DNA from: Demequina flava | GTDB taxonomy: Bacteria; Actinomycetota; Actinomycetes; Actinomycetales; Demequinaceae | Assembly (NCBI RefSeq): GCF_000975035.1 | Contig: NZ_BBRA01000001.1 | Coordinates: 620,001-684,000 of the forward strand | Direction of reading: 5' to 3' | Length of the DNA: 64,000 nucleotides | Shown: piece after piece, positions 1-60,133 of the stretch | Numbering within the stretch: the first letter of the stretch is position 1 | Layout of the letters: the number at the start of each line of letters is the position of its first letter | Notes under the pieces: model-generated | Told to the model about the DNA's origin: nothing | What the model saw: only the letters and a program-made list of their open reading frames with translations | The model's database searches: none | Made by a program: the position numbers and the translations under genes

Positions 1-267
1 GGCCGACTCCACGATGACGGTGTTGCCGACCAGAACGTAGGCCGCCTCGATTGGCCTTCCCAAAAGGTCCTGCGTGGCAATCGTCAGACGCTGCGCGCCA
101 GGAACTGACGCCATCGCGTCGATTGTTCCCTCGCCCCCGTCAGCCACGGTGAGGATGCTCACGTGAGCATCGGCCAAAGCCCGCTTCACACCGCGCGCGA
201 CAGCCCGGCCTGCATCAGCGGACCCCACAGACCCCTTGAAGGAGTCCATCGCGACGACCACGCGCAT
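1..267 (-). CDS. Glycerate kinase, N-terminal part (cut by window edge)
   Basis: Only the first 89 codons are inside the window. The translation begins MRVVVAMDSFKGS and reaches VADGGEGT, the two N-terminal signatures of the GarK/GlxK glycerate kinase family, which phosphorylates glycerate with ATP to feed lower glycolysis. The ATG at 267 matches the usual family start. An in-frame ATG at 282, one base after the stop of the upstream gene, is a possible alternative. The gene follows the GH13 phosphorylase directly, so the two are probably co-transcribed. A phosphorylase acting on glucosylglycerate would release the glycerate this kinase uses. Confidence 0.88.
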   Translation of the reverse strand, partial: MRVVVAMDSFKGSVGSADAGRAVARGVKRALADAHVSILTVADGGEGTIDAMASVPGAQRLTIATQDLLGRPIEAAYVLVGNTVIVESA

Positions 268-283
268 CGGCCCGCCTGTCATG

Positions 284-1981
284 TCAGGAGCCCTGAAGCC
301 ACACGACGCCATCGGGCGCTAACTCGGGAGAGTCGAAGCGGTCGCCTGTCAGCAAGTCAGTTCCGGAGTATCCGTCGACTCGGGCGGGCGTGCGCGAGAC
401 ATTCACGAGCGCCGTCACAGCCTGCGCGCCCGTGCCGCGCTTGATCGCGTAGACCTGGTCGCCTGCATCGAGAACCTCCTGTGGCGAGGTGGGGGCGAAC
501 GCAGGTTGGCCGCGCCGCACCTCGAGCATATGAGAGATCGCTTCGAAGACGCCGTGGCGCCGAGCGTCGCTACCGAGTTCCGCGAGCAACGTATCCGCGT
601 CGAGCTTCTCGCGATTGATGCGCCGGTTCACACCCGAGGACTCCATCCCTGCCGTGTCCCCACGGGAGCCGAAGAGCGAGTGCACGTAGATTGCCGGCAC
701 CCCAATCTGGGCGAGCAAGATCGCATGTGCCGCCCGGGCACGGGCGGCGACCACGGCATCGTCCCTGCGCTCGGCGTCATCGACGAGCGCATCGACATAG
801 TTGACGTTGAGCTCGTAGACCGACTGCGACCCATCCGGTTCCATCGCGTACGAGGCACGGCCGCCGCTGGCGTGAGCACGAGCCGCGAGCGCCTCCTGCT
901 CCTGGGGCTCGAGAATGCCGCGGGAGGGGCGCATCCCGACGCCGTCGTGGCTGGCGAGGAAGTTGAACCACGTCGCGGCTGCGCCGAGGTCTTCGAGGCC
1001 GCGTGACCACGCGCTAAGACGTGCGGCGGAGCCCGACAAGAAGGAATGCAGGACTAGCGGCGGAAGCGCGAACTGGTACACCATGTGCGCCTCATCCGTG
1101 AGGTCGCCGAAGTAGGAGATGTTGTCCGGATGCGGCACGTTCGTCTCGGTCAGAAGCTTCACCCCTGGTGCGGTTGCGTCAACGATCGCGCGCCAGATCT
1201 TGACGATCGCGTGAGTACCCGGCAGGTGGATGCAGGCCGTTCCCGAGTCCTTCCACAAGTAGCCGATTGCATCGAGGCGGATCGTCGTAGCGCCTGCCGA
1301 AATGTACGTGAGCAAGACATCGGTGAGCGCCTCTAGCGTCGCCGGGTTCGCGACGTTGACGTCGACCTGATCGCGGCCGAACGTGCTCCACGCTGACACC
1401 GTTGACCCGTCTGGGCGCTCGTAGTCGTGGATAAGCGGCGTCGTGCGTGGACGCACCACCTGCGAGGCATCAAAGTCGCCCGCCGGGGTGATGAAGAAGT
1501 CGGCAAATGAGGGGTCGCGGTTAAGCCACGCCTGGAACCATCCGGCCTGGGAAGACATGTGATTGGCCACGAAGTCGAGGGCGATACCGCGCGTCGCGGA
1601 GAGATCAGTGACATCACTCCAGGCACCCACGTTGGGGTCGATCTCGTAGTAGTCCGTGACAGCAAAACCGTCGTCTGAGGTCCACGGGAAGATCGGCAAC
1701 AGGTGGACGTCGGAGATACGGTCCCCCACGGTCGCATCAAGGGTGTGGCGCAGGGTCTTAAGGGGCGCCTGTCCGGTGCGGCGGATTGAATCTCCGTACG
1801 TGATGAGGAACGACGTGCGCTCGCTCATCGGGACCTCAGCGGGGGCACCGCCTCCTTCAACAAAACGTGACGTGACCGCAAGCAGGCGATTGAGGATCTC
1901 GGCAGCTTCGCCGGGTTCGTCCGTGAGGACCGCGATGAGCGGCTCGAGCTTCGCTGACAGATCGCCGTTGATCGTGGGCAC
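284..1981 (-). CDS. GH13 subfamily 18 glycoside phosphorylase (glucosylglycerate phosphorylase-like)
   Basis: A 565-residue GH13 (beta/alpha)8 enzyme. Visible catalytic elements are Asp237 in TIRLDAIGYLWK (nucleophile), Glu279 in LLTETN (acid/base) and Asp346 in ASHDG (transition-state stabiliser), with His141 in the VANH block. The LWKxxGTxCxHL block after the nucleophile is typical of the sucrose phosphorylase / YcjM branch, which splits alpha-glucosides with phosphate to give glucose 1-phosphate. Glycerate kinase next door argues for glucosylglycerate rather than sucrose as substrate (inference). There is no signal peptide, so it is cytoplasmic. The start is GTG, preceded by AGGACGA at about six bases. 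The gene diverges from a sugar ABC importer. Sucrose or sucrose-6-phosphate phosphorylase is the main alternative. Confidence 0.8.
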   Translation of the reverse strand: MPTINGDLSAKLEPLIAVLTDEPGEAAEILNRLLAVTSRFVEGGGAPAEVPMSERTSFLITYGDSIRRTGQAPLKTLRHTLDATVGDRISDVHLLPIFPWTSDDGFAVTDYYEIDPNVGAWSDVTDLSATRGIALDFVANHMSSQAGWFQAWLNRDPSFADFFITPAGDFDASQVVRPRTTPLIHDYERPDGSTVSAWSTFGRDQVDVNVANPATLEALTDVLLTYISAGATTIRLDAIGYLWKDSGTACIHLPGTHAIVKIWRAIVDATAPGVKLLTETNVPHPDNISYFGDLTDEAHMVYQFALPPLVLHSFLSGSAARLSAWSRGLEDLGAAATWFNFLASHDGVGMRPSRGILEPQEQEALAARAHASGGRASYAMEPDGSQSVYELNVNYVDALVDDAERRDDAVVAARARAAHAILLAQIGVPAIYVHSLFGSRGDTAGMESSGVNRRINREKLDADTLLAELGSDARRHGVFEAISHMLEVRRGQPAFAPTSPQEVLDAGDQVYAIKRGTGAQAVTALVNVSRTPARVDGYSGTDLLTGDRFDSPELAPDGVVWLQGS

Positions 1982-2043
1982 GTGGGTCGTCCTTTGCTTC
2001 GTGATGTGAGCCGTGACGTCGGAGTCACGCTTTCGTAACAGTG

Positions 2044-2128: not shown

Positions 2129-3517
2129 ATGTCAATGAAGACACCCACCATCCGTACGGTGGCCGTCGCCGGAGCTGCAGCGTTGTCGCTCGCAGCCTGT
2201 GGCAGTGGCGGATCCGTGAACGACGCCTCAGACGGGCTGCTGATGTGGACCCTCGAGGTTCAGCCAGACCGTCTCGAGACCCAGACCGCAATCCTCGATG
2301 GCTTCACCGAGGAGACCGGCATCGATGTGGAACTCGTTCCCGTCGAGCAGGACCAGCTCGCCCAGCTCATGGCCTCCGCGGCACTGTCCAGCGAAATGCC
2401 TGACGTCGTGGGCGGCGTCACTTTAGGGCTCGTGCGCTCCTTCGACACCGAGGGCTACCTCAACGCCGACATCGCTGCCGATGTTGTCGACTCCCTGGGG
2501 GCAGATACCTTCACGGACGCCTCGCTCACGCTCACCCAGGACGGGGACACTCAGCTCAGCGTTCCGGCCGATGCTTGGGCACAGATCCTGGTCTACCGCG
2601 CCGACCTCTTTGAGGCAGCGGGCCTGGAGGCACCGACCACGTACGAGTCGCTTATGGCGGCGTCGCAGGAACTCACCGCAGGGGACCAGTTCGGCATCAC
2701 TCTCGCCACTGACCCATCGGGCACGTTCACGCAGGAGACCTTCGAGTCCCTCGCGCTCGGTAACGACTGCGAACTCGTTGACGACTCGGGCGCCGTCACC
2801 CTTGACTCGGGTGCCTGCACCACGACGACGGACCTCTACACGGCGCTCGGCACGGACTACTCCCCCGCGGGAACGCAGACCGTCGAGTCGACTCGTGCCT
2901 CCTACTTCTCCGGACAGTCCGCGATGATCCTGTGGTCGACGTTCATTCTCGACGAGCTGGCCGGACTGCGTGATGACGCGGCCCCCAGCTGCGACGAGTG
3001 TACTTCCAGCAGCTGGCTCGCCGAGAACTCGGGCATCGTCCCGATGGTTGCCGGCCCCGACGCCACCGACGGCGGCGGCGCGTTCGGAGAGATGACGTCG
3101 TTCGTCGCCTCTTCCGACGCCTCCCCTGAGGAGTCGACTCAGCTCATGGAGTACCTCATGACTGACGGTTACGTGGACTGGATGTCCATGGCGCCTGAGG
3201 GCAAGATGCCCGTCCGCCACGGTGAAAGCGCTGACTCCACCGAGTACCTCGACGCCTGGACCGAGCTCGAGGCCGGCGTGGACACCAAGATGCCGCTTGG
3301 CGAGATCTACTCCGAGGAGACCATCGCGTCGCTCCTCGACGTCACCGAGAACATCTCACGCTGGGCACTGACCGAGGGCCAGGGCTCCATCATTGGCCCC
3401 CTCAACGCAGAACTGCCGATCTCGAAGGCCATCGCCGAGTCCACCTCGGGCGCGATCGACGCGGCCACGGCTCAGGCGGACATGGTCGACGCCGTCACAG
3501 AAATCGCTGATAACTAA
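2129..3517 (+). CDS. Extracellular solute-binding lipoprotein of a sugar ABC importer
   Basis: A 462-residue family 1 solute-binding protein. The N-terminus has a short signal peptide ending in the lipobox LAAC, so the mature protein is lipid-anchored on the outer face of the membrane. The chosen ATG at 2129 has GAGGAAG upstream; an in-frame GTG at 2114 would swallow that ribosome binding site. It is the first gene of an operon with two MalF/MalG-type permeases and a ROK regulator, and diverges from the GH13 phosphorylase. No ATPase gene is present, so a shared MsiK-type ATPase elsewhere probably energises it. The ligand is inferred, from context, to be an alpha-glucoside such as glucosylglycerate. 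Confidence 0.88.
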   Translation: MSMKTPTIRTVAVAGAAALSLAACGSGGSVNDASDGLLMWTLEVQPDRLETQTAILDGFTEETGIDVELVPVEQDQLAQLMASAALSSEMPDVVGGVTLGLVRSFDTEGYLNADIAADVVDSLGADTFTDASLTLTQDGDTQLSVPADAWAQILVYRADLFEAAGLEAPTTYESLMAASQELTAGDQFGITLATDPSGTFTQETFESLALGNDCELVDDSGAVTLDSGACTTTTDLYTALGTDYSPAGTQTVESTRASYFSGQSAMILWSTFILDELAGLRDDAAPSCDECTSSSWLAENSGIVPMVAGPDATDGGGAFGEMTSFVASSDASPEESTQLMEYLMTDGYVDWMSMAPEGKMPVRHGESADSTEYLDAWTELEAGVDTKMPLGEIYSEETIASLLDVTENISRWALTEGQGSIIGPLNAELPISKAIAESTSGAIDAATAQADMVDAVTEIADN

Positions 3518-5326: not shown

Positions 5327-6481
5327 GTGAAGCAAGGACCCGGCGACCTTCTCCACCTCATCCGCACGGGCGAGGCCACCACTCGCGGAGAACTCCAGGC
5401 CGCGACGGGCCTGTCCCGCGTGACGGTTGGCAAGCGCCTGGACGCCCTCGAGGCCGCCGACATCATTTCGGAGGCAGGCACGGGCTCGGCAACGGGCGGA
5501 CGCCGCGCGGGCACGTTCTCGTTCTCCCCGGGCGGTGTCGTCATGGTGGCGGCTCTCGATGCCGTGGGCGGCTCGACCGCCGCCGTCGATTGCCACGGCA
5601 CCGTCCTTGCACGCGGAACCGTCGACGCTTCGGTCTCCCACGGGCCCGAGGCAACCCTCGACATCGTGGTGGAAACACTGCGAGCCCTCGCAGCATCGGC
5701 CGGACTGGGATGGGACCGCGTGGTCGCGATCGCGATCTCGGTTCCGGGCCCCACAGACCCCACGGACCACCGGCTGAATGACCCACCGATCATGCCGGGT
5801 TGGTCCGGCTGGCCGATCATCGAGTACGTGAGCGAGACGACCGGCGTGCCCGTGTATGTCGAAAATGATGCGGACGCGATGGCGTATGGCGAAGCATTCG
5901 CTCACGGCACGCCTCCGCGCTCGCTCGTCCTCGTGAAGGTGTCCGACTACATCGGCGCCGGCCTCGTGCTCGAGCAGCGGATCTTCCGCGGCGAGGATGG
6001 CAGCGCCGGTGACATCGGGCACATTCACGTGGGCGGGACACGCACCTGCCGCTGTGGGCGCACTGGATGCCTCGCGGCTGAGGCCTCGGGTGCAGCAATC
6101 GCCGCCGAGCTCACGGAAGCCGGCTACTCGGTGAGCCGTCCCGAGGCGATTGTGGAACTGGCCACCGAGGGCGACACGCGCGTCACGCAAGAACTGCGCC
6201 GCGCGGGCGAACTCATCGGCACCGTTGTGTCCTCGGTGGTGAGCATGCTCAACCCGGCGACCCTGGTGATTGCGGGACCGCTCGCCAGCCCCGACTTGAT
6301 CGCGACCATTCGCTCGACCGTCTACGCCAAGTCACTCCCCCGTGCCACGCGTCACCTGGCGATCCGCCCCTCCGAGCTAGGGGACGATGCTGGGGTTGTG
6401 GGACTCGCGACGGTGGCAGTGAACGACTTCTATTCAGCCGAGTCGGTCAACCTGCGGCTCGATACTGAGGCAAGCGCGTAG
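5327..6481 (+). CDS. ROK family transcriptional regulator of the glucoside locus
   Basis: A 384-residue protein with an N-terminal winged helix (about residues 8-55, TTRGELQAATGLSRVTVGKR) followed by a ROK sugar-binding domain. The ROK zinc site is visible as CRCGRTGC with GHIHV just before it. It lacks the N-terminal DxGxT ATP loop of ROK kinases, as expected for a repressor. The GTG start lies five bases after the permease stop, so it is the last gene of the ABC operon. It probably controls the promoter at 2044 and the divergent phosphorylase in response to the imported glucoside (inference). Confidence 0.85.
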   Translation: MKQGPGDLLHLIRTGEATTRGELQAATGLSRVTVGKRLDALEAADIISEAGTGSATGGRRAGTFSFSPGGVVMVAALDAVGGSTAAVDCHGTVLARGTVDASVSHGPEATLDIVVETLRALAASAGLGWDRVVAIAISVPGPTDPTDHRLNDPPIMPGWSGWPIIEYVSETTGVPVYVENDADAMAYGEAFAHGTPPRSLVLVKVSDYIGAGLVLEQRIFRGEDGSAGDIGHIHVGGTRTCRCGRTGCLAAEASGAAIAAELTEAGYSVSRPEAIVELATEGDTRVTQELRRAGELIGTVVSSVVSMLNPATLVIAGPLASPDLIATIRSTVYAKSLPRATRHLAIRPSELGDDAGVVGLATVAVNDFYSAESVNLRLDTEASA

Positions 6482-7680: not shown

Positions 7681-7712
7681 AGCCCCAGCGTAGGCCGATG
7701 CTGCGACACGCA

Positions 7713-7764: not shown

Positions 7765-9660
7765 TTAGTTCTTCAGGAAGCGGCGGGACACCAGCAGGCC
7801 GGCACCCAAGGCCACCAGAATTCCGGCGGGCAGGACCATGTTCAGGTCGCCACCGGTGGCGGGCAGAGCGGCCGAGGTGGTCTCGACCGTCTCGGAGTCG
7901 GTGCTGTCCGTCGATGCCTCGTCGGTTGCAGTGTCATCGGACTCGGTCACGACCGCAGAGGTGGTCTCGGCAGAAGCCTCTTCCTCAGCCTCGTCCGTCG
8001 ACTCGACTTCTTCAGGCACGGTGACCGTCTCGATGACGGGCAGTGCCTCGACGTCGAAGGACAGCGAGTGCGATGCCTCGATCTTGGCCTTGTTGACCGC
8101 GGTGCTACGCGGGTTTCCAGGGCCCAAGGGCAGGAAGCCGGACAGGGTGACCTCGAGAGTCACGGAGCCTGAGGCGACATCCTCATCCGTCACCGCGTAG
8201 TCGACAGAGCAGTTGACGATGCCGCCTGCAGGAACAATGCCATCTGCAGCAATGACGCACGCGGGGGTCAGACCGGCGGGCGAGGTCACCTCGACGACGA
8301 CACCGGACAGATCGTAGTCCGAGGATCCAGGAATGGTGAAGTCAACCGAAACGACATCTCCAGGCTTCGCGGCGCCAGGCACGGAGTCCGTGCCCCACAC
8401 CACTTCCTGAGAAGCCTTGCGGTAGTCGGCGAGGTCCGCACGGCGGTCAGCGACCGACGCCTTGCCGTCCGAAAGCCCGTCAACCAGAGTGTCAAGAGCG
8501 GCGACCTTAGCGGCACCCTCTCCCTGCTCACCGAGGAGGGCAAGGTAGGCAGCCTCCGCATCGGCCCGGACATCCTTGGCAGCAAACAGTGCTGACTGAG
8601 CATGACCCTGGAGCGCGCGGAGTCGGTCGAGTTCGACCTTGGCGTCGCTGTTTGCCCGCTGCTTCGCCTTGTGGTCAGCAACGGCAGCGTCGAGGGTCTT
8701 CTGCGCTTGTACCACTGCAACGTTTGCCGCACTCAGCATTGCCTCAGAGTTAGCGAGCGCATCGCGTGCAGCCTGGGTCGCGACAGCGGTGTCCGCTACC
8801 GCCTGCTTCTTGGCATGGCCGTCCACACGAGTCGTCATTGCATCGACGGTGTCGACCCACCCCTGCGCCACGTCACGAGAGAACTTCGCGGCCTCAAGGT
8901 CCCACCAAGTGCCGACCTGGTCGAGTCCCGTTGCCGCATCGTGCGCGGCCTGCGCGTCAATAACATCCTGCTGCCGCGCGTCGCGCTCGGCGACTGCGTC
9001 ATCGTAGGCATCACTCAGGTCCGACACACGTACTGGGCTGTCGTTCCATCCGGTCCACTCGGAAGGAATCCCGGCGAGCGAAGCAAGAGTGGCGTTGAAC
9101 GCATCGTTCGCGGCCTGCTCGGCAGCCTCAGCGTCCCCAAGAGCAGTCGTAGCGTCCGTCACGGCGGACTCGGCACCGGGCACAGCATCCTGAGCAACCA
9201 CAAGTGCATCTTCCGCGGCACGCTTGGCTTGGACTGCCTGGTTGCGAGCGACGCGGGCAGCATCCTTCACATCCTGCTGGGCGTCGGCGGCGGACTTGGC
9301 CTGGTTGCGGGCAACCTGCGCGGTGCGGTGGTCCGTCTGCGACTGTTCGTAAACCGCGAGCGCCGCAGCGAGCGCGCCAGTTTCGAGTGCCGCGAGATCG
9401 GCTGCAGCCTGATCGCGCAATGCAGTCAGCTCGGTAGCCGAACCATCGAATGCATCAGCGTTCGCGAGAACCGCGTCCCAGTCGCCGTCGATAAAGGCCT
9501 GGTTTGCGGCGTCAGCGGCGGCCTGGGCGGCCGCAGCGATAGCGTCTGGATCCGGCGTCGCAGGATCGGAGGTGGCGAGAGCCGGCGTTGCGGCCCCCAT
9601 GGTCAGTGCGACGGCAGCGCACGCGGCCGCCGTGGACGCGCCAAAGCGTGTCAGTTTCAT
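7765..9660 (-). CDS. LPXTG-anchored coiled-coil surface protein
   Basis: A 631-residue secreted protein. It has a signal peptide (residues 1-29, ending TPALA), a long Ala-rich helical region (about 35-420) dense in heptad-like Ala/Lys/Asp/Gln that predicts coiled coil, and a beta-rich domain (about 430-540) with two cysteines resembling DUF11/Ig-like repeats. A Ser/Thr/Glu linker follows, then the sortase signal LPATGGD (about 599), one membrane helix and a RRFLKN tail. Sortase would attach it to peptidoglycan. GAGGGG lies just upstream of the ATG. No sortase gene is in the window. The function is unknown; adhesin or stalk-like spacer is a guess. Confidence 0.85.
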   Translation of the reverse strand: MKLTRFGASTAAACAAVALTMGAATPALATSDPATPDPDAIAAAAQAAADAANQAFIDGDWDAVLANADAFDGSATELTALRDQAAADLAALETGALAAALAVYEQSQTDHRTAQVARNQAKSAADAQQDVKDAARVARNQAVQAKRAAEDALVVAQDAVPGAESAVTDATTALGDAEAAEQAANDAFNATLASLAGIPSEWTGWNDSPVRVSDLSDAYDDAVAERDARQQDVIDAQAAHDAATGLDQVGTWWDLEAAKFSRDVAQGWVDTVDAMTTRVDGHAKKQAVADTAVATQAARDALANSEAMLSAANVAVVQAQKTLDAAVADHKAKQRANSDAKVELDRLRALQGHAQSALFAAKDVRADAEAAYLALLGEQGEGAAKVAALDTLVDGLSDGKASVADRRADLADYRKASQEVVWGTDSVPGAAKPGDVVSVDFTIPGSSDYDLSGVVVEVTSPAGLTPACVIAADGIVPAGGIVNCSVDYAVTDEDVASGSVTLEVTLSGFLPLGPGNPRSTAVNKAKIEASHSLSFDVEALPVIETVTVPEEVESTDEAEEEASAETTSAVVTESDDTATDEASTDSTDSETVETTSAALPATGGDLNMVLPAGILVALGAGLLVSRRFLKN

Positions 9661-9844: not shown

Positions 9845-11215
9845 GTGAGCGAGAACACTTCTGACAAGTCCAACAAGGCCCGCGCGCTGCGCCCTGACAA
9901 TGACGAGTTCAAGACCTGGGTGGGCTCGAACTGGGCGGAGCCGGATGATCTCGCAACCCAGCGCCTGGGCTCGGCGCCCTACGCGGCTCAGCGCCGGCAA
10001 CGGCTGTCTGAAATCTTCCCCGGCAAGCGCATCGTCGCGCCTGCCGGCGACTTGAAGGTGCGCTCCAACGACACCGACTACCGCTACTCCCCCTCGCGCG
10101 ACTTCGCATACCTCACAGGCCTGGGCACCGACCGCGAGCCGGGCGCCGTCCTGGTCATGGAGCCCACGGCAGATGGGCATGACACCACGCTCTACCTGGT
10201 GCCACCGGCCGGCAAGGACGACGACGGCTTCTACACGAACCCCCGCTCAGGCGAGTTCTGGATTGGACGCCGCCCCGGCCTTGCCGAGTTTGAAGCGATG
10301 ACAGGCATCACGACGCGCCCTCTCAGCGAGTTGCCCAGCGACATCCGTGTCGCCAACCACCCGCACAAGGCCGTGGCCCGCGTTCTGCACGAGATGCGCC
10401 TGGTCAAGGACGAGTGGGAAATCCAGCAGATGCGCGACGCGGTGGACGCCACCATGGCCGGGTTTGAGCGCGTCGTGGGCGAACTGCCGAGGGCCATCGA
10501 ACACAAGCGCGGCGAGCGCGTGGTTGAGGCCACATTTGACGGCCACGCGCGCGAGGAAGGCAACGCCGTCGGCTACGAGACCATCGCGGCCTCGGGCCCC
10601 CACGCGACCACCCTTCACTGGATCACGAATGACGGCCAGGTCCACGCCGGCGACCTCCTTCTCCTGGATGCGGGTGTCGAGGTCGACTCGCTCTACACCG
10701 CGGACATCACACGCACCATGCCCGTCACCGGGGAGTTCTCTGCGGTGCAACGCCGCGTCTATGACGTTGTGCTTGAGGCGGCAGATGCGGCCTTCGTCGT
10801 TGCCCGTCCAGGCGCCACGTTGCGCGATGTGCACGACGCCGCGATGGACGTCATCGAGGCACGCCTGAACGAGTGGGGCATCATCCCCGAGGCCGCCTCA
10901 GACGACTCTAAGCTGTTCCGCCGCTGGATGGTCCACTCCACCTCTCACCACCTCGGCCTCGACGTGCACGACTGCGCCGCCGCCAAGCGCGAGACCTACA
11001 TGGACGGACCCCTGAAGCCGGGCATGGTCTTCACGATCGAGCCGGGCCTGTACTTCAAGGCGGACGATCTCGCCGTTCCCGAGGAGCTGCGTGGCATTGG
11101 CGTCCGGATCGAGGACGACATTCTGGTCACCGAGGACGGCGTGGAGAACCTGTCGAAGGCGCTACCGCGGACGGCCGATGCTGTGGAGACCTGGGTGGCC
11201 AAGCACCGCAAGTAG
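9845..11215 (+). CDS. pepP: Xaa-Pro aminopeptidase (M24B)
   Basis: A 456-residue two-domain peptidase. It has an N-terminal creatinase-like domain (1-180) and a C-terminal pita-bread domain with the five metal ligands Asp275 (LLLDAG), Asp287 (TADITRT), His368 (HHLGLDVHD), Glu399 (TIEPGLYF) and Glu423 (IGVRIEDDI). It removes N-terminal residues preceding proline and is probably cytoplasmic, as no signal peptide is seen. The GTG start gives MSENTSDK. The gene stands alone. Confidence 0.93.
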   Translation: MSENTSDKSNKARALRPDNDEFKTWVGSNWAEPDDLATQRLGSAPYAAQRRQRLSEIFPGKRIVAPAGDLKVRSNDTDYRYSPSRDFAYLTGLGTDREPGAVLVMEPTADGHDTTLYLVPPAGKDDDGFYTNPRSGEFWIGRRPGLAEFEAMTGITTRPLSELPSDIRVANHPHKAVARVLHEMRLVKDEWEIQQMRDAVDATMAGFERVVGELPRAIEHKRGERVVEATFDGHAREEGNAVGYETIAASGPHATTLHWITNDGQVHAGDLLLLDAGVEVDSLYTADITRTMPVTGEFSAVQRRVYDVVLEAADAAFVVARPGATLRDVHDAAMDVIEARLNEWGIIPEAASDDSKLFRRWMVHSTSHHLGLDVHDCAAAKRETYMDGPLKPGMVFTIEPGLYFKADDLAVPEELRGIGVRIEDDILVTEDGVENLSKALPRTADAVETWVAKHRK

Positions 11216-11293: not shown

Positions 11294-12277
11294 ATGTCTG
11301 TTCCCCTGTCTGTCCTTGACCTTGCTCCCATTGGAGAAGGGGACAGTGCCGCAGATGTGTTCGCGCACTCGGTCGACCTTGCTCGCGCTGCTGAATCATC
11401 CGGGTTTAAGCGTGTTTGGTATGCCGAGCACCACAACATGGTGACGATCGCGTCCTCAGCGACCAGTGTTCTGATCGCGCACATCGCGGCTCACACCTCC
11501 ACGATTCGTCTGGGTGCCGGCGGCATCATGTTGCCGAACCACTCGCCGCTGACGATCGCCGAGCAATTCGGCACACTCGAGTCACTCCACCCCGGGCGCA
11601 TCGACCTGGGACTCGGCCGCGCGCCCGGCGGTGACCGGGCGGTGTTTGCGGCGCTGCGCCGCACCCCCGAGGCCTCCGACCGCTTCCCGCAGGACATCGT
11701 CGAGCTACAGGGCTATCTGGGCGATCAGTCCCGCGTCGAGGGCGTGAAGGCCACGCCGGGCGCGGGTACGCAGGTGCCGCTGTACATCTTGGGATCGTCG
11801 TTGTTTGGGGCGCAGCTGGCGGCCCAGTTGGGTCTGCCATATGCCTTCGCATCGCACTTTGCGCCAGCGGCGATGACCGAGGCCGTCGCCGCCTACCGCG
11901 AGGGCTTCACGCCATCCGAGCAGCTTGCCGAGCCTCACGTCATCCTCGGTGCCAACGTGTTCGCCGCCGACTCCGCCGATGACGCACAACAGCAGTTCCT
12001 TGAGTCACGACGTGCCCGCGTCCGCATGATGATCAAGCGCGGCCCGTCCACCCCGGACTACACCGACGCGGACATTGACGCGTTCCTCACCTCACCGCAG
12101 GGCGCTCAGTTGGCGGACATGATGCGTCACACCGCGATCGGCACGGGCGCCGAGGTGCGCGCATGGCTCGAGGACTTCGCGGCGTCCCACGGCGCCGACG
12201 AGATCATTACGGCGCACGGCGCCAAGCGGGCCGATGCTCGGGTCACCTCGGTCAACCTCACCGGGGCTGGGTCTTAG
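11294..12277 (+). CDS. LLM class flavin-dependent oxidoreductase (MsnO8/YhbW type)
   Basis: A 327-residue luciferase-like TIM barrel. The typical opening [14 protein letters not shown], the block [10 protein letters not shown] and the phosphate-binding region [11 protein letters not shown] are diagnostic of the single-component MsnO8/YhbW group, which uses reduced flavin to oxidise unknown substrates. It converges with the MocR gene, overlapping it by four bases at the stops. The substrate cannot be predicted. Confidence 0.85.
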
Positions 12278-13671
12278 GCTGCCCGGTCAGCCAGGACCTT
12301 CACGCCTAGCCGCATTTCCTCGGGCGTGAGGTAGAACGGCAAGCGGAAGTGCGCCGCTCCGCCTCCCGGCGCCACCTCAAAGGCGGTGCCGGGAGCGACA
12401 GGGACGCCAGCATCGGCCGCCCTGGCCGCGAAGCGGTCTGCATTCGCGCCTGGCACGTGCACCCACAGACTCGGCCCGCCATCGGGCGTGCGGACCTGCC
12501 ACTCGGGCGCATACTCCGCGATCGCCTCGAGCGTCGCGTCCAGGGACTCCCTCAGAGCCTCTTGGCGCCACTGCAGCGTCTCGTCAAACCCGCTCATCAG
12601 TTCCCGCGCGATGCGCTGCATGAAGGCGGAACTCCCCAGATCCATAGCGGCCTTGCGCTGGCGGAGCTGTGCGGCGAGTGTCGCGTTGGTGTGCAACCAG
12701 CCGATGCGCATCCCACCCCAGAACACCTTCGACAGTCCCGAGATGGTGACGACGGAGGCGCCCGTTCCAAGCGACGCAAACGCCGGAGCGGCGGTCCCGT
12801 CGAGGGCAAGGTCCGCGGTGATGCGGTCGTCGACGAGGGTGGTGCCGGTCGCGGCGGCGGTCTCCGCGAGCGCGAGCGCGCCGTCTGGAGTGAGCGTGGT
12901 GTCGGTGGGGTTGTGGAACGTCGTCACGTAGGCCGCTTGCGGGCGCGCCGCTTTGAGGAGTTTCACGGACGCCTCGACGTCGAGCCCACCCGGGCCCATC
13001 GGCAATGCGAGCGGGCGCGACCCCGCCGACGTGATCGCGTCGAACACACCCGGGTACGTCACGGACTCGAGTGCCACGGGCGCATCGGGGCCCACCAGTT
13101 CTGTCATGGTCAGCCACAGCGCCTGCTGCCCACCGGAGGTAATGACGACCTCGTCTGCGCTGGCCTCAATACCCTGCGAGCGCAGCCGTGCCACGACCAC
13201 ATCGACAAGGTCCGGGTCGCCCAGGGCCGCGTACCCCGTGCCAAGGGTCGGGGACGCCTCGAGCATGCTGCGCGGATCTGCGAAGGCCTCGACCACCGAC
13301 GGCGCTGGCGGCGGGCACGCCGACGACAACCCGACCAGCGGTGCTTGATTCCCCGGCAGGATCTTGGCAAAGCGATCCTGCAAACTCATCGCATCAAGGC
13401 CGCGCGCGCGTGACCCCAGCGTGGGAGCGGCACCGGCGCGGGTGTCGAGCCAGGCGTCGTCGCGCAGTCGCTGGTAGGCGGAGGTCACCGTGTTGCGCGA
13501 CAGGTGCAGGGAGTCGGCCAGTGCCCGCTCGGACGGCAGCCGGGTGCCGTGTTCCAGGGAGCCGGACTCTGCCAGCGACACGATGGCGTCGGCGAGCTGC
13601 TGATACAGCGGCCCGGTGCCGGAGCGCCAGTGGTCGAGGACGTCGCGAAGTTGGTCGGCAGTGGTGCGCAT
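12274..13671 (-). CDS. MocR-type regulator (GntR helix-turn-helix plus aminotransferase domain)
   Basis: A 465-residue protein with a GntR winged helix at residues 1-75 ([20 protein letters not shown]) and a class I aminotransferase-like domain (about 90-460) that binds PLP; the Schiff-base lysine is in [10 protein letters not shown]. MocR proteins sense PLP or its amino-acid adducts and usually control the divergent gene. Here that is a PLP-dependent decarboxylase, 97 bases away across a clear operator. The target amino acid is unknown. Confidence 0.9.
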
Positions 13672-13768: not shown

Positions 13769-15217
13769 ATGAGCACTTCACACCTCGATCGCGTCTTCAC
13801 CAATCCCACCTCGCGCGGACGGCGCCGCGAGCACATGGGCCTGCTCACCGAAGCCACGCGAAGGGCCGGAAGCTACGTCGCCAACTCCCCGCATCGGCCC
13901 GTGTATCCCTCCCCCGAGGCCGTCGCGGCCCTCGATGCCTTCCGCACACCTCTTCCCGACGGCCCACGCGAGCCCAGAGACGTCCTGCGCGAACTCGACG
14001 AGGTCGGCTCCCCCGCCACCGCGGTTCTCAACGATGGACGCTATTTCGGCTTCGTGACCGGCGGCACCGTTCCGGTGGCGAGCGCTGCCTCAGTGCTGGC
14101 GGGCGCGTGGGACCAAAACGTCGGCGGTGGCTCCCCCGTGGGCGAGGCGATCGATCAGGTCGCTTGCCAGTGGGTCGTTGAGGCGCTCGGACTCCCCTCC
14201 CAGTCCGTTGCCGCCTTCAACGGCGGAGCCACCGTCGCGAACCTCACCGCCATCATTGCGGGGCGCGACGCGCTGTACTCGCGGCTCGGGTGGTCCGTCG
14301 CGGATCGCGGTCTTGCCGGGGCACCCGCGTTGCGCGTCGTCGTGGGCGACGAGGTGCACGCCTCCGCGCTCAAGGCACTTCGTTTGGCGGGCTTTGGCGA
14401 GTCTCAAATCGAGCGCGTGCCCACCGACCACAAGGGCGCAATACGGGCCGATGCTTTCCCCACCGACACCGACGACCGCACCTTGGTCTTGCTCCAGGCA
14501 GGCAACGTCAACACCGGCGCATCTGATCCGTTCACCGAGATCATCCCCGGGGTCCGCGAGTGCGGCGGCTGGGTCCACGTCGATGGCGCCTTTGGGTTGT
14601 GGGCTGCGGCCTCCGAGACCCGCCGTCACCTCGTGGCGGGCGTCGAGGAGGCCGACTCGTGGGCAACAGATGCCCACAAGTGGCTGTCGGTCCCCTACGA
14701 CTCCGGCATTGTGATCGTCCGCGATGGCGCAGATCTGCACCGCGCCATGAGTGGCGATGCCGCATACATCAACTTTGACGAGTCGGCGCCGATGAACCGC
14801 GGGATCCAGATTTCGCAGCGCGCCCGGGCCGTCGAAACCTGGGCCATGCTCGCGACGCACGGCAAGTCCGGACTAGCGGCTCTCATCGACCGTCATTGCT
14901 CGCTCGCGCAGCGCTTCGCGACGGCATTGGCCGATGCCGGGGCTGAGATCCTCGCACCGGTCGCCCTCAACCAAGTGCTGGTGGCGTTCGGAGATGAGGC
15001 AGAGACAGTCGCGACGATTGCAGCGATCCAGGCCGATGGCACGTGCTGGGCGGGCACGACGGTGTGGCAGGGCAGGCGCGCGATGCGGGTCTCCGTGTCT
15101 GACGTGGCGACGACGGCCGATGACGTAGACGCTTCGGTCAACGCAATGCTGGCGGCGTGGCGTTCAGTCCGCGCGGACACCTCTGCCGCCACCGCCCCAG
15201 TGGTGAACACTCGCTGA
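13769..15217 (+). CDS. PLP-dependent amino-acid decarboxylase (group II)
   Basis: A 482-residue fold-type I PLP enzyme related to glutamate/aromatic amino-acid decarboxylases. The PLP lysine is in TDAHKWLSVPYDSG and the cofactor-binding Asp/His region is WVHVDGAFGLW. The ATG at 13769 gives MSTSHLDR; the open frame extends upstream to 13616, but that part runs through the operator and the divergent gene. It is probably repressed or activated by the adjacent MocR protein. The actual substrate (tyrosine, DOPA, aspartate or glutamate type) cannot be decided from the sequence. Confidence 0.85.
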   Translation: MSTSHLDRVFTNPTSRGRRREHMGLLTEATRRAGSYVANSPHRPVYPSPEAVAALDAFRTPLPDGPREPRDVLRELDEVGSPATAVLNDGRYFGFVTGGTVPVASAASVLAGAWDQNVGGGSPVGEAIDQVACQWVVEALGLPSQSVAAFNGGATVANLTAIIAGRDALYSRLGWSVADRGLAGAPALRVVVGDEVHASALKALRLAGFGESQIERVPTDHKGAIRADAFPTDTDDRTLVLLQAGNVNTGASDPFTEIIPGVRECGGWVHVDGAFGLWAAASETRRHLVAGVEEADSWATDAHKWLSVPYDSGIVIVRDGADLHRAMSGDAAYINFDESAPMNRGIQISQRARAVETWAMLATHGKSGLAALIDRHCSLAQRFATALADAGAEILAPVALNQVLVAFGDEAETVATIAAIQADGTCWAGTTVWQGRRAMRVSVSDVATTADDVDASVNAMLAAWRSVRADTSAATAPVVNTR

Positions 15218-17675: not shown

Positions 17676-17848
17676 TGTTCCCCCTTGAGCCGCAATGGCT
17701 TCCCCTTAGCGATGCCTACGCTGACAGGCACGGGGCATCGGCCGCAATGGTAGCGACACTCTCTGTGAGCAATCTCATAACTGAAACTGGACATTGCGGT
17801 TTTTTGGGGCGTTCCAGCACCGCGACCACAGCGCCTACGATGGAGGGC

Positions 17849-22648: not shown

Positions 22649-22697
22649 CTGGGTGTCCTCCTGTGCGCGGCACGGGGCCGCCGGTTGTCCGGTGACC

Positions 22698-22780: not shown

Positions 22781-22782
22781 CC

Positions 22783-26233: not shown

Positions 26234-26266
26234 GGGCCGATGCCGGGGTAACCCTGGCATCGGCCC
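26234..26266. terminator. Bidirectional terminator built from an inverted GGCCGATGC pair
   Basis: GGGCCGATGCC (26234-26244) and GGCATCGGCCC (26256-26266) form a perfect 11-bp stem with an 11-base loop that can pair further. It sits between the convergent purU and SpoIID genes. Each arm contains the 9-mer that recurs through the window. Confidence 0.8.
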
Positions 26267-48854: not shown

Positions 48855-51467
48855 TCAGTCCACGAGACTCTCGAGGAACTGGGTCACGAGAGCGGCTTCC
48901 TCCGGATGGTGCCACTGGTCGGCGTCAGGTTCACCGAGCGCAACGACCTGGAGTGCGCGGTCATCGAGGAGGCGTCGCATGCGTTCGGGGAGCCGCAAGC
49001 TACGAAGCGACAGGAATTCGTACCGGAGCGTGTCTGGCACATAGCGCCCAGTCATGTACCCGTAGTACTGAGCCAGAGACGAAAGAACTGAGAAGTCTGA
49101 ACCAGAACGAAAGCGGCTAGCGCGCGTACGGGCGAACTCATCCGGATAGCGATTCTCAAGTTCCTCGAGCACGTCGCGCCGGTGCGGGTAGGGGATATGA
49201 AGCATCGACTGCGTAATCTCCATACCAAAATCACGCAGTAGAAGATTGCGATTGTTGTGTGCCGCGCCAAGGTGAGGGGCACCCTCAACATCACCGAAGT
49301 TCACCTTCAAGTGAGACGGGAAGAACTTGGCCGCCCCATTGCCGAGGAAGAAGTGTCCAGGTTGCAACGCGCTCGCAAGGATCATGTCGTCGTTGAAATA
49401 GATAAAGTGGTCGGCAATTCCCCGGATACGATGAAGGCATGCCTCAATCGCGTGAGAGTTAAATACCGGCAATACGTCTGCGTCCGGGAATATCTCCCGG
49501 TGATCCACAAAGTTGATGTCAGGAAACTCCGCTGCGATCCGCTCAGGGATCTGGCGGTCTGTCACCACATGAATAGAGCGGATCCACGGCGCAAACTTTC
49601 TCACAGACCTTACGGCGTAATAGATCTCATCACGGCTGTGGAATCGAGCGTCACGCAGACCGTCTGACGACGACTCATCAGGTGCCGACTCAACGTACCC
49701 AGGCTGAAACTTCCTGCGACGCTCCGCCCACGCAGGATCCGCGCCGTCGACCCAAGTGAAAACGGCGTCAATGGGGAAGTCCACTTGCTGCCAGAGTGCC
49801 TTGCCTGAGACCGTTGTATTCCCCGAACCTACCCAGGCGTCCCAAGTGGGGGCGTCGACCCACGTTGCGTTGAGGTTGGAACGGGGTGCGCGCCGGGTCC
49901 CGTTCGGATCCGCCTCCCAAAACTCGATTCCCACACGCGACAATGGAAATTCGTCGTCCTCTGATGGAATGGTGACCTCGACGTGCGTGGCATAAGGCAG
50001 CGTCACCGGCGCTGCGGCCTTGTCGCTCCACGGCCCCGCAGACAAGTGACCACGTCGGACCCACGCGCACATCTGCCAGTTTTCTTCGGTCACGACATCC
50101 GTGATCGCGCTGAGCGCACGCTCCCGGTCTTCCAGCGCCACGGCAAAGTCGATGCGAGAATCCGCCGTGGAGACGCGCGCTGCCGCGATGCCCGCACGTT
50201 CCAAGGCCTGAGCCACGTTGTCTTGCATCGCTTGTTGACCCAGTAGGTCCGGCGCAAATCGGCGCACCGGCGCACCTAACTCCAGCACGCCCCCATCGAA
50301 GCCCACATCATGAGTAGTAACCGTTCCGAGGTTTTCGTCGTAGAGCGACCCTGACTGTTTCCCGTCCAGAACGCGCGAGAAAACCTGATCCCAACGATCA
50401 GCGATCGCTTCAGGATCAAACGCCTGGGCACCCTGTCGTGCACGTTCTCCAAGTTCCTCGAGACGCTCAGGCGATGCCATCAGGTGCGCCAGACTTGCGC
50501 CGAGGGCCTCAATCGAACCATCGGGCGCAAGCAGGCCACCGCCTGCCTTCTCAATAATCTCTCGCGGCCCAGTTTCAATGTCGTAGGCCACCATCGGCAC
50601 GCCCGCCGCAGCAGCCTCAATGCCCACCATCGGAAGACCCTCGTATCGAGAACTGAGGCCAAAGATCGAAGCCTTCGACATCTCCGCCGCGAGTCGCTTG
50701 GTGGGAGGCAGGATCTCGACCTTGCCTACAAGACCCCATCGCTGGACCTTTTTACGCAGTTCATCCCGTTCGTAACCATCACCGAAGATCCGCAGGCGCC
50801 AGTCGGGAACGAGCTGGTTCGCTTCATAGAATGCCTGAATGAGGTGATCAAACCGCTTCTGATACGTGAACCGGCCCGCACCGATAATTAACCTGTTTTT
50901 CAATCCGCTGCGCGGGATAAAGCCTCGCTCGTGCGGATTCTCTACGACAGCTAACGGTGGCGCATCGGCGCCAAGACGGTCCGCGAGCCAATCCTGTGAA
51001 CGTTGGGTCAAACTCGTCAACAGATCCAGTCTCGAACCGTGTGAGACCAGAGGGCCTAGCCCCTCGTTGCGGTGCATCGGTGGCCGATGCTCCTGGTGAA
51101 TGACTGCCACGCGCCGCGGCACAAATTCGGTCGCCAGAGCCGCAAGTGCTGGAGTTGAAGTGACTACGACGTCGGCTGCAACTCCCCGGAGGTACTTCTC
51201 AATGGCCCGATCGGTCACAGGCGAAAACTGGTTGTCCCACTCACTCGGAACAAGCCGGGAGCGTCCCGCGGGAATACCCTTGCGCGCGTCAACAAGGTAC
51301 GAGAGCCGGACTCGGCGACTCACCTGGTAATGGGGGGCTTGCGAAGTCCGGTAGACGCCGACGACCGTGACAGAATGGCGCTGCGCCATCTCCGAGGCTT
51401 GCGTCAGAATCGTCCTCTCAGTTCCCGCACCTGAGTCTGGCGTTGTCAGCAGGTAAATGATCCTCAT
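48855..51467 (-). CDS. GT4 glycosyltransferase fused to Stealth-type sugar-phosphate transferase
   Basis: An 870-residue fusion. Residues 1-375 form a GT-B family 4 transferase (IIYLLTTPDSGAGTERT, IGAGRFTYQKRFDHLI, SSRYEGLPMVGIEA). Residues about 380-560 are a beta-rich linker. Residues about 563-870 are a Stealth domain with CR1 IDAVFTWVDGADPAW (566-580), CR2 near IYYAVRSVRKFAPW and CR3 with YFNDDMIL. Stealth proteins transfer sugar-1-phosphates to make phosphodiester-linked capsules. It overlaps the next upstream gene by four bases. Confidence 0.88.
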   Translation of the reverse strand: MRIIYLLTTPDSGAGTERTILTQASEMAQRHSVTVVGVYRTSQAPHYQVSRRVRLSYLVDARKGIPAGRSRLVPSEWDNQFSPVTDRAIEKYLRGVAADVVVTSTPALAALATEFVPRRVAVIHQEHRPPMHRNEGLGPLVSHGSRLDLLTSLTQRSQDWLADRLGADAPPLAVVENPHERGFIPRSGLKNRLIIGAGRFTYQKRFDHLIQAFYEANQLVPDWRLRIFGDGYERDELRKKVQRWGLVGKVEILPPTKRLAAEMSKASIFGLSSRYEGLPMVGIEAAAAGVPMVAYDIETGPREIIEKAGGGLLAPDGSIEALGASLAHLMASPERLEELGERARQGAQAFDPEAIADRWDQVFSRVLDGKQSGSLYDENLGTVTTHDVGFDGGVLELGAPVRRFAPDLLGQQAMQDNVAQALERAGIAAARVSTADSRIDFAVALEDRERALSAITDVVTEENWQMCAWVRRGHLSAGPWSDKAAAPVTLPYATHVEVTIPSEDDEFPLSRVGIEFWEADPNGTRRAPRSNLNATWVDAPTWDAWVGSGNTTVSGKALWQQVDFPIDAVFTWVDGADPAWAERRRKFQPGYVESAPDESSSDGLRDARFHSRDEIYYAVRSVRKFAPWIRSIHVVTDRQIPERIAAEFPDINFVDHREIFPDADVLPVFNSHAIEACLHRIRGIADHFIYFNDDMILASALQPGHFFLGNGAAKFFPSHLKVNFGDVEGAPHLGAAHNNRNLLLRDFGMEITQSMLHIPYPHRRDVLEELENRYPDEFARTRASRFRSGSDFSVLSSLAQYYGYMTGRYVPDTLRYEFLSLRSLRLPERMRRLLDDRALQVVALGEPDADQWHHPEEAALVTQFLESLVD

Positions 51468-57706: not shown

Positions 57707-58924
57707 TTATGCCAGGCGGGTCGAGAGGTTCTCGTCGAGCGTGGCGAGGAACGCCTCGGTGGTCTGCCATTCCTGGTCAGGGCCCACGAGGAGTGCGAGG
57801 TCCTTGGTCATCTTGCCGGACTCGACCGACTTGATGATGACGTCCTCGAGGGTCTCGGCGAAGCCGGTGACCTCGGGGGTGCCGTCGAGCTTGCCGCGGT
57901 GCTTGAGGCCGCCGGTCCACGCGAAGATCGAGGCGATCGGGTTCGTGGACGTCGGCTTGCCCTGCTGGTGCTGACGGAAGTGGCGCGTCACGGTGCCGTG
58001 AGCGGCCTCTGCCTCGACGGTCTTGCCGTCCGGGGTCATCAGCACGGAGGTCATGAGGCCCAGCGAACCGAAGCCCTGCGCCACCGTGTCGGACTGGACG
58101 TCGCCGTCGTAGTTCTTGCAGGCCCAGACGTAGCCGCCCTCCCACTTCATGGCGGAGGCCACCATGTCGTCGATGAGGCGGTGTTCGTAGGTGAGACCGC
58201 GGGCCTCAAACTCGGCCTTGAACTCGCGGTCGAAGACGTCCTGGAAGATGTCCTTGAACGCGCCGTCGTACTGCTTGAGGATCGTGTTCTTGGTGGACAT
58301 GTACACGGGGTAGTTGCGCAGCAGTCCGTAGGAGAAGGACGCGCGAGCGAAGTCCTCAATGGACTTGTTGAAGTTGTACATACCCATGACGACGCCGCCG
58401 TCCTCGGGCATCTTCACAACTTCGTGCTCGATGGGCGCGGAGCCGTCCTGCGGCGTGTACGTGATGGTCACGGTGCCGGGGCCGGGAACCTTGAAGTTGG
58501 TCGACTTGTACTGGTCGCCATGAGCGTGACGGCCAATGATGATCGGCTTGGTCCAGCCGGGCACCAGGCGCGGGATGTTCGAGATGATGATGGGCTCGCG
58601 GAAGACCACGCCGCCAAGGATGTTGCGGATGGTGCCGTTAGGGCTCACCCACATCTTCTTGAGGCCGAACTCCTCGACGCGCGCCTCGTCGGGCGTAATC
58701 GTCGCGCACTTCACGCCAACGTTGTGCTTCTTGATGGCGTTGGCAGCATCGATCGTGATCTGGTCGTCGGTCGCGTCGCGCGACTCCACACCCAGGTCGT
58801 AGTACTCGAGGTCGATGTCCAAGTAGGGGTGGATCAGGCGTTCCTTGATGAACTGCCAGATGATCCGCGTCATCTCATCGCCGTCGAGTTCGACGACCTT
58901 GCCTTCGACCTTGATCTTCGCCAT
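57707..58924 (-). CDS. icd: NADP-dependent isocitrate dehydrogenase (eukaryote-like type)
   Basis: A 405-residue enzyme oxidising isocitrate to 2-oxoglutarate. The sequence [45 protein letters not shown] and [12 protein letters not shown] belongs to the homodimeric eukaryote-like subfamily. The ATG at 58924 is the family start; a frame extension to 59152 is not coding. Its transcript ends at the hairpin just downstream. Confidence 0.97.
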
Positions 58925-59050
58925 TGAGTGTGCCTCATCACGTTTATAGGGACAATTACGACGAACCCAGGCTAGTCCACTCGGGCATGCAAGGGGAACG
59001 CGCCCGGGCCTGCACGCCGCGCACCAGGCCATTCCGATTAGCATGGCGCC

Positions 59051-60133
59051 ATGGCGAGCGTCCGGAATGCGAAGATCGAGTTGCTTCGCATCCTCGCGAT
59101 GGTCGGCATCGTCGCTCATCACTACGTCGTCCACGGCGGTGTCCTCACCCAAACCGAGTCCGCCAACACCGCCATCTTCCTGAGCGCCTTCGGGAGCTTG
59201 GGCAAGTGGGGCGTGGACGTCTTTGTCCTCGTGGGTGCTTGGTTCATGGTGCAGCGTCCAGCACGGGGGAAGGCCCTATCGCGCATCTACAGCGAGGTGC
59301 TGCCGGTTTCGTGGCTGATCGCCGCACTCCTCGCCGTGACCGGAGCAGTTGCGCTGTCGACCGCCGACGTTCGTGAAGCGCTCCTTCCTGTCATCTTCAG
59401 CGAGTACTGGTTCGTCACCGCCTATGTCCTCATGGTGTTGATCGCGCCCTACCTGGCCATCGTGCTTGAGGCTCTCAGCAAGCAACAGCTCGCGCGCCTG
59501 CTCATCGTCGGCCTCGTGATGTGGAGCCTCCTCACGTTGGTCCCCCGGGTCGCCCTCGGGCTATCGGACTTCGCATGGTTCGCGTTTCTGTTTCTGCTGG
59601 CGGGGTACCTCAGGCTTCACGGGTTGCCTGGAACGGGCCGATGGTGGGGTTGGGCGACGCTCATCGCCACCGGTGCGCTCGTGCTTGCCCCTGCAGCAAT
59701 GGCGGCGTGGAGTTCGGCGTCCGGGTCCCCCGGCGACTCCGCGCGCTGGCTAAAGGAGGTCGCCTCGCAGACCTCTCCCCTGACCGTCGCCGCCGCGGTG
59801 GCCATCCTGATGTGGGCGACCAAGAGCGCACCATGGCGGTCGCGGGCGATCGTCTACGCAGCATCGGCCTCCTTCGGGGTCTACCTGATTCACGACAACC
59901 CGCTGGTTCGCCGCGTGCTGTGGCCGGACGTCGTCGACACCCCATCAGCGGCAGGACAGTCCTGGCTACCTCTCCACGCAATTGGCTGGACCCTCGCTGT
60001 CTACATCGCGTGCTCGATCGCGATCTTTGCGCTCCAGCCTGTCCTCCTGCGCCCTATGCACCGTCTGACAGAGTCCATTCGCCGCGGCGTCGAACAACGG
60101 CTCGACCGGGCCAACAGCGGCCCACAACCTTAA
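59051..60133 (+). CDS. Acyltransferase 3 family membrane protein
   Basis: A 360-residue polytopic membrane protein with the signature [18 protein letters not shown] near the start and about ten helices, ending in a basic tail. This subgroup (OafA/WecH-like) O-acylates surface polysaccharides or other extracytoplasmic acceptors. It is on the plus strand between icd and the aquaporin gene. The acceptor is unknown; the polymer cluster 3 kb away is one candidate. Confidence 0.85.

Follow-up and report, generated by a model that had tools for sequence, protein, structure and literature searches.

The motif in the window and across the genome

The window, which is the whole 64-kb stretch of Demequina DNA that was analyzed, carries the 9-mer GGCCGATGC both in and between its genes, and this motif, a probable DNA uptake sequence, is the subject of this report. 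An exact search found 31 copies, 14 on the plus strand and 17 on the minus strand (Table 1). By heuristic gene calls, these encode Ala-Asp-Ala (12 copies), Ala-Ser-Ala (7), Pro-Met (3), Ile-Gly (3), or His-Arg-Pro (2), and the remaining 4 are noncoding. Eighteen copies extend to GGCCGATGCT. Under an order-3 Markov model, GGCCGATGC was the most over-represented 9-mer of the window, whereas 100 dinucleotide shuffles predicted 1.59 ± 1.30 copies with a maximum of 6. Every single-base variant was present in 6 copies or fewer, with GGCCGACGC found 3 times.

A preliminary description of this DNA had reported 30 copies where chance would give one or two. The shuffles bear out that expectation and the excess is real, but the true count is 31, the copy at 13891 having been overlooked. 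Most of the listed start positions were exact; four required correction, from 2576 to 2566, from 20224 to 20222, from 36768 to 36758, and from 59871 to 59861. The encoded residues were close to those given above and agreed for Pro-Met, Ile-Gly, and the noncoding copies, whereas Ala-Asp-Ala had been put at 14, Ala-Ser-Ala at 5, and His-Arg-Pro at 1. The number of extended copies and the even use of the strands were found as described. Equally high counts of single-base variants, which would have refuted the observation in that description, were not seen.

The excess was present genome-wide. Three contigs totaling 2,546,965 bases contained 1,261 copies (626 and 635 on the two strands) compared with 73 copies (40 and 33) of the reversed pattern used as a control, an enrichment of 17-fold. 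Further statistics were collected from a genome sample composed of the window and 20 other stretches, each 20 kb long (464 kb in total, or 18% of the genome). The sample held 211 copies, whereas an order-4 Markov model predicted 21, and GGCCGACGC occurred 22 times. Density varied from 0.15 to 0.65 per kb across the 21 stretches, and the spacing of copies resembled random scatter (coefficient of variation, 1.02). The G-rich strand carried 112 copies and the other strand 99, indicating no leading-strand bias when the sign of the GC skew is taken as a rough proxy for the leading strand. No strand was consistently favored across the 21 stretches and no polarity was seen.

Shape of the motif and independence from codon preference

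In the sample, the 9-bp core is followed on its 3' side by a weaker, graded T-G-K-G-G-Y and is preceded by a weak R, and the motif stretches to about GGCCGATGCTGKGG / RGGCCGATGCTGKGGY. Little conservation was detected beyond about 16 bp around it. Genes of the sample were called by a simple GC-frame method, which placed 172 copies in coding sequence, 37 in intergenic sequence, and 2 at edges; the noncoding share of the sample was 9.1%. One frame was shared by 87 of the 172 coding copies, and copies occurred in all six frames and outside genes. When the codons of 399 genes were shuffled synonymously in 200 rounds, 23.8 ± 4.8 copies were obtained (maximum, 36) compared with 173 observed. After a G, GCC-GAT-GC was found 88 times and GCC-GAC-GC only 14 times, although GAC is 2.9 times commoner than GAT overall (6,966 versus 2,428). 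Because of the shuffling result and the GAT/GAC contrast, codon preference is excluded as the source of GGCCGATGC, as the preliminary description had argued when it called codon bias alone insufficient.

Seven inverted pairs of the motif, with less than 60 bp between the copies, were present in the sample. Five of these are intergenic, three of them lying between convergent genes. RNA folding of the five intergenic pairs gave z scores from -4.6 to -9.9 for four pairs and -2.0 for the fifth. The hairpin of the window (26235-26265), which separates convergent genes, folds at -35.6 kcal/mol with a z score of -4.6.

Dialects among related species

The number of GGCCGATGC copies ranged from 14 to 2,018 across 47 genomes of the family. 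With GGCCGATGC denoted dialect A, GGACGATGC dialect B, and the GCCCGACGC type dialect C, 18 of these genomes were A-rich, 14 were B-rich, 2 were rich in both, 2 carried C, and 11 had little or none. The last group comprises 8 Demequina genomes and 3 from two other genera and includes the intermediates G011 (409 A copies) and G012 (472 A copies). Because GGCCGATGC counts were low in some species within the genus, five low-count species were scanned for other motifs over 40 to 120 kb each, and two were found to carry them: GGACGATGCG occurred 38 times in G023 (0.8 expected) and GCCCGACGCTG 28 times in G037 (0.3 expected). In 120 kb of G026, GCCCGACGCGG was present 18 times compared with 1.2 expected. 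Scans of 111 to 140 kb in each of G004, G034, G043, and G044 revealed no clear dialect motif. Weak signals were seen for a GGCCGACGC-like motif in G034 and for GCCGATGCCG in G011. Two of the family genomes are incomplete, G010 (50% complete) and G036.

In whole-genome counts, the 14 B-rich genomes contained 929 to 1,864 copies of GGACGATGC; the A-rich genomes, with 83 to 275 copies, were used as the fair background for this motif because its reversed control is low. Both dialects were present in G017 (1,294 copies of GGACGATGC and 664 of A) and in G022 (984 and 394, respectively). CCCGACGCT occurred 988 times in G037, 335 times in G026, and 9 to 124 times in the other family genomes. Loci from named species agreed with the dialects. 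A 21-kb locus of D. globuliformis had 12 A copies, and B copies numbered 18 in D. maris and 13 in D. phytophila.

The 18 A-rich Demequina genomes contained 234 to 747 copies of GGCCGATGC per Mb. In an order-wide set of 297 genomes, 24 from this family and 273 from others, the highest density among the 273 was about 175 per Mb (G278). The excess of GGCCGATGC outside the family is modest and below the Demequina level. Four genomes from another family of the order (G278, G203, G083, and G238) carried several-fold more GGCCGATGC than the reversed control and did so more sparsely than Demequina.

A species tree of the 47 genomes was built from metE and aroC by a quick search that left 12 of 44 inner branches unresolved. 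On this tree the five dialect labels require 8 changes, compared with a mean of 23.8 for shuffled labels. Most B species fall in one clade, at whose base lies G017, with G022 close by, both carrying A and B, and G020 and G028 represent a separate gain of B.

Individual sites were then compared between relatives, each pair being counted in both directions and some loci being used twice. At 80 to 90% identity, 38 of 57 A copies (0.67) were retained compared with 3,324 of 10,843 permuted 9-mers (0.31), and 30 of 52 B copies (0.58) compared with 4,080 of 9,645 (0.42). Below 80% identity, 16 of 40 A copies were retained versus 960 of 6,141 permuted 9-mers. The window and D. globuliformis share 78% DNA identity over 19.5 kb, where 4 of 14 window copies are retained; in its best segment, the window's serine hydroxymethyltransferase matches the D. 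globuliformis enzyme at 96% identity. Since the DNA is only 78% identical, the window belongs to a different Demequina species. Because retention exceeds that of permuted 9-mers and yet most sites differ at 78% identity, single sites appear to come and go while the number of copies is maintained, as would be expected if uptake were biased.

Competence genes and an orphan pilin

A type IV pilus locus sits between the genes for shikimate dehydrogenase and chorismate synthase. It encodes PilB, PilT, PilC, a pilin, a 524-amino-acid protein, a prepilin peptidase, PilM, and two more proteins (632 and 227 amino acids) with pilin-type N termini, and two genes without a family match occupy the places where PilN and PilO would be. 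A search of this genome for ComEC found it adjoining ComEA, which combines SLBB and helix-hairpin-helix domains. PilM was present in 45 of the 47 family genomes, as was a relative of this ComEA. G003 and G016 (pilus loci L158 and L151) are 97% identical around metE, and yet the minor pilins of the two show very different degrees of similarity when compared with those of the window's genome. The pilus locus of G043 (L164) contains a G/C homopolymer run with 24 matches to GGGGGGGG, which is possibly a phase-variable tract or an assembly end.

Pilins outside the pilus locus were found in nine of 12 genomes searched with the pilin N terminus; G005, G006, and G044 yielded only in-locus pilins in this search. 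The orphan pilin of the window's genome has 134 amino acids, and its gene is convergent to metE. In 31 of the 47 family genomes, a counterpart is located downstream of metE at a distance of up to about 3.2 kb. It was not found or was broken near metE in 14, comprising the motif-rich genomes G002 (a fragment), G005, G006, G013, G016, G022 (a possible 3' remnant of 11 residues), G027, G032, G040, and G042 and the motif-poor genomes G036, G044, G045, and G046. Contig ends left G012 and G039 unscored. The protein changes fast between genomes. The solved structures that it matches are pilins, and the resemblance lies mainly in the N-terminal helix.

Motif density was lower where this pilin was lacking. 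Of the 34 A- or B-rich genomes, the 10 lacking an intact copy had 366 motifs per Mb compared with 497 for the others (Mann-Whitney p=0.001, uncorrected for kinship). In comparisons with the nearest relative, the genome without the orphan pilin had the lower motif count in 7 of 7 cases (sign test p=0.016); the pairs were selected on the tree once the counts had been obtained. Nine comparisons were made, of which two that shared a genome were left uncounted; G032 and G040 were omitted for want of a near relative, G002 was scored as lacking an intact pilin, and G022 was scored by B copies alone. This is what decay after loss of a receptor would look like, and other causes are possible. The orphan pilin is a candidate receptor for the motif.

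Interpretation and alternatives

Abundance, independence from codons, a one-sided extension, even strand use, hairpin-forming pairs, dialects grouped on the tree with genomes of mixed type between them, turnover of sites, and the presence of competence machinery together argue that GGCCGATGC is very probably a DNA uptake sequence, here belonging to an actinobacterium. Among these, the dialects speak decisively for such a system. We infer from these genomic patterns that the motif governs uptake and that Demequina is competent. In the proposed mechanism, free DNA would be bound at the motif by a receptor on the cell surface, probably one of the minor pilins of the type IV pilus; pilus retraction would carry the DNA to ComEA, and ComEC would import one strand. 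Motif-bearing DNA would be taken up and recombined more often, so that copies would accumulate genome-wide by biased transformation where protein sequence permits, and drift of receptor specificity between lineages would generate the dialects. The preliminary description had likened the motif to uptake signal sequences, with a methyltransferase target and a chromosome-organization motif as alternatives, and had pointed to related genomes, spacing and strand use, site conservation, and com genes as the places to look. Dialects between species, random-like spacing without strand bias in the sample, retention of A copies above permuted 9-mers, and ComEA, ComEC, and a pilus locus were found there; with the hairpin pairs and the lower density without the orphan pilin, they give the likeness strong circumstantial support, which is not proof.

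Several observations weigh against an uptake sequence. In eight Demequina genomes all three motifs are scarce or absent; PilM is retained in seven of these eight (the exception, G036, is 85% complete) and the orphan pilin in five, with two unscored for it. Outside the family, some genomes also exceed the reversed control, such as G278 with 332 copies versus 49. An intact pilin near metE is lacking in ten motif-rich genomes, and no overall association was seen between the pilin and motif richness (pilin present in 26 of 36 rich and 5 of 9 poor genomes; Fisher p=0.43). The orphan pilin was consequently rejected as the sole determinant of the motif and is kept only as a receptor candidate. Its sequence is not cleanly sorted by dialect, since the G028 pilin (B) is nearest to the G004 pilin (none) and the G043 pilin (none) to the G020 pilin (B). 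Strong differences between species, running across dialect lines, were also seen in the minor pilins of the pilus locus, and they were rejected as a dialect-setting receptor because their identity to the proteins of this genome cuts across dialects, as judged without formal clustering. The hairpins do not have the T-run of a standard terminator, no clear T-run following any of the five. No uptake or transformation experiment with Demequina was found in the literature searched. Finally, a Markov model of maximal order, trained on the very sequence it is applied to, predicts 165 of the 211 sample copies and 25.8 of the 31 in the window. It does so because the 8-letter parts of GGCCGATGC are themselves inflated (270 and 306 copies in the sample versus 69 and 82 expected). 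A frequency matching a high-order model had been named as a refutation in the preliminary description. As the maximal-order model is built on the motif's own words, the case rests on the synonymous-codon shuffle.

The prediction of the maximal-order model, with 172 of 211 copies coding and 87 in one frame, is also what favors an origin in codon or codon-pair preference, or in a mobile repeat. Such an origin is extremely improbable given the outcome of the synonymous shuffle, the preference for GAT where GAC is commoner, and the copies found in all six frames and outside genes. A mobile repeat was rejected because conservation ends about 16 bp around the copies, which leaves no mobile unit. A target of a DNA methyltransferase or restriction enzyme is also very improbable. 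Nonpalindromic targets of such length exist and can vary between species, but restriction targets tend to be avoided, whereas GGCCGATGC is enriched many-fold, and a methyltransferase target needs neither a graded extension nor intergenic inverted pairs; a methylation target is unlikely.

The more than one thousand copies genome-wide would suit a chromosome-organization signal, such as an FtsK-orienting, Ter-exclusion, or nucleoid-protein site. Signals of this class either have a polarity or are restricted to a macrodomain, whereas here no strand is consistently favored, copies occur in all 21 stretches, and dialects speak against a signal of this kind, so that it is highly unlikely; a KOPS-type polar signal was rejected for the lack of strand bias in the sample. 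A recombination hotspot like Chi, read at broken ends by an enzyme of the RecBCD, AddAB, or AdnAB type, is unlikely as well. Chi sites are likewise short, asymmetric, over-represented, and located in genes. The Demequina motif differs from them in showing no leading-strand bias by GC skew in the sample, in forming hairpins from intergenic pairs, and in being a 15-bp graded motif, and three dialects in one genus would be unexpected of a slowly evolving repair enzyme.

Relation to known uptake systems

A DNA uptake sequence in Demequina would have counterparts elsewhere. In Neisseria, inverted pairs lie at gene ends and an orphan gene encodes the minor pilin ComP, both with counterparts in Demequina. 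The Demequina motif is a different one, carried by an actinobacterium without an outer membrane, and the orphan pilin resembles pilins mainly by its N-terminal helix and is missing in several motif-rich species. The Neisseriaceae, like Demequina, have a type IV pilus. Their DNA uptake sequences are short motifs in up to thousands of copies, with dialects that agree with the core-genome tree and act as interspecies transformation barriers (PMC3630211). The uptake signal sequences of the Pasteurellaceae have a 9-bp core with weaker flanks and occur in many copies that are sparser in strain-specific DNA (PMC7811141); they also have dialects, and a minor pilin is predicted as their receptor (PMC12616744). 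They differ from the Demequina motif in sequence and phylum, and the Demequina extension is G-rich and on the 3' side rather than made of AT tracts.

A 2020 paper names two families, Pasteurellaceae and Neisseriaceae, in which species show a strong sequence preference during DNA uptake (PMC7811141), and a 2023 paper states that no uptake sequence has been reported for mycobacteria (PMC10526031). Micrococcus luteus is a naturally transformable actinobacterium with comEA and comEC; it has Flp/Tad pili, and the accessible text mentions no uptake sequence (PMC6370729), whereas the Demequina locus has PilB, PilT, PilC, and PilM. No actinobacterial uptake sequence was found in the literature searched, which largely excluded subscription papers and preprints.

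A further motif, CGGATGCCG, was present in 1,024 to 2,599 copies in 10 of 12 genomes (G320 to G328 and G330; reversed controls, 37 to 141) that we take to be Microbacteriaceae from the names of the records. Lower counts were found in Leifsonia TF02-11 (373) and Pseudoclavibacter caeni (226), and ten other genomes, including three Demequina genomes, had 69 to 273. Microbacteriaceae loci with CGGATGCCG were L024, L049, L053, L057, L061, L065, L068, L070, L075, and L080. Loci of Glaciibacter and Cryobacterium favor A[AG]CGGATGC, which suggests that dialects occur in this family too. Natural transformation has been achieved with two of its members, Rhodoluna lacicola and Aurantimicrobium photophilum (PMC11577799).

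Eight Brevibacterium loci (L008, L020, L023, L026, L027, L028, L035, and L077) were enriched in C[AG]CCTCGGCGA, and Brevibacterium CACCTCGGC had 50 coding copies compared with 14 after synonymous shuffling. In relatives of Arthrobacter (L013, L025, L029, L038, L042, L046, L047, L050, L063, and others), CGACGTCG and ACGACGGCG exceeded synonymous shuffling about 2.5-fold; these motifs are weaker and less sharp than that of Demequina, and homologous loci inflate their counts.

It is plausible, and in our judgment slightly favored, that uptake sequences are widespread in Actinobacteria, with one motif per family, a dialect per species group, and fast-changing orphan pilins as readers. Demequina (GGCCGATGC, GGACGATGC, and GCCCGACGC) and the Microbacteriaceae (CGGATGCCG) may be two cases of this, and Brevibacterium and the Arthrobacter relatives may be others. 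If the Demequina motif is an uptake sequence, it would be the third such system to arise independently, this time in bacteria that lack an outer membrane, indicating that such tags evolve repeatedly and that uptake specificity is separable from outer-membrane passage. The dialects and mixed genomes would then be a record of a dialect switch, and Demequina, perhaps with many Microbacteriaceae, would be best transformed by donor DNA bearing the right motif.

Coordinates and additional features

Table 1. Copies of the motif in the window and pilus-related genes elsewhere in the genome
Feature	Position	Strand	Context
GGCCGATGC copy	167..175	-	noncoding
GGCCGATGC copy	264..272	-	noncoding
GGCCGATGC copy	2566..2574	+	Ala-Asp-Ala
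GGCCGATGC copy	5693..5701	-	Ala-Ser-Ala
GGCCGATGC copy	7693..7701	+	Ala-Ser-Ala
GGCCGATGC copy	8558..8566	-	Ala-Asp-Ala
GGCCGATGC copy	11173..11181	+	Ala-Asp-Ala; full 3' extension TGTGG
GGCCGATGC copy	12229..12237	+	Ala-Asp-Ala
GGCCGATGC copy	12410..12418	-	Ala-Asp-Ala
GGCCGATGC copy	13891..13899	-	His-Arg-Pro; absent from the preliminary list
GGCCGATGC copy	14446..14454	+	Ala-Asp-Ala
GGCCGATGC copy	14929..14937	+	Ala-Asp-Ala
GGCCGATGC copy	17153..17161	-	inverted pair, left arm; surrounding ORF 17073-17675 uncertain
GGCCGATGC copy	17175..17183	+	inverted pair with 17153 copy, right arm
GGCCGATGC copy	17735..17743	-	Ala-Ser-Ala
GGCCGATGC copy	20222..20230	-	Ala-Asp-Ala
GGCCGATGC copy	20584..20592	-	Ala-Asp-Ala; retained in D. 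globuliformis
GGCCGATGC copy	20819..20827	+	Ile-Gly; retained in D. globuliformis
GGCCGATGC copy	23258..23266	-	Pro-Met; retained in D. globuliformis
GGCCGATGC copy	26235..26243	+	intergenic; hairpin left arm, convergent genes either side
GGCCGATGC copy	26257..26265	-	intergenic; hairpin right arm
GGCCGATGC copy	31433..31441	-	Ala-Asp-Ala
GGCCGATGC copy	32660..32668	+	Ala-Ser-Ala
GGCCGATGC copy	33131..33139	-	Ala-Asp-Ala
GGCCGATGC copy	33182..33190	-	Ala-Asp-Ala
GGCCGATGC copy	33823..33831	+	Ala-Ser-Ala
GGCCGATGC copy	36758..36766	+	Ile-Gly
GGCCGATGC copy	38181..38189	+	Ile-Gly
GGCCGATGC copy	43522..43530	-	Pro-Met
GGCCGATGC copy	51082..51090	+	His-Arg-Pro
GGCCGATGC copy	59861..59869	-	Ala-Ser-Ala
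prepilin peptidase	L088:7195-7980		pilus locus
orphan pilin	L278:5463-5867	-	near metE

Copies are unevenly spread in the window, with 28 of the 31 before 38,190 and 3 in the last 25.8 kb, a boundary set after the data were seen. From 38190 to 64000, GC content falls to as low as 0.59 and surface-glycan genes are found (pyruvyl transferase, glycerophosphotransferase, a Stealth protein, and capsule synthesis); this part is probably variable or acquired DNA. The serine hydroxymethyltransferase gene has a ZMP/ZTP riboswitch at its 5' end (22694-22782).

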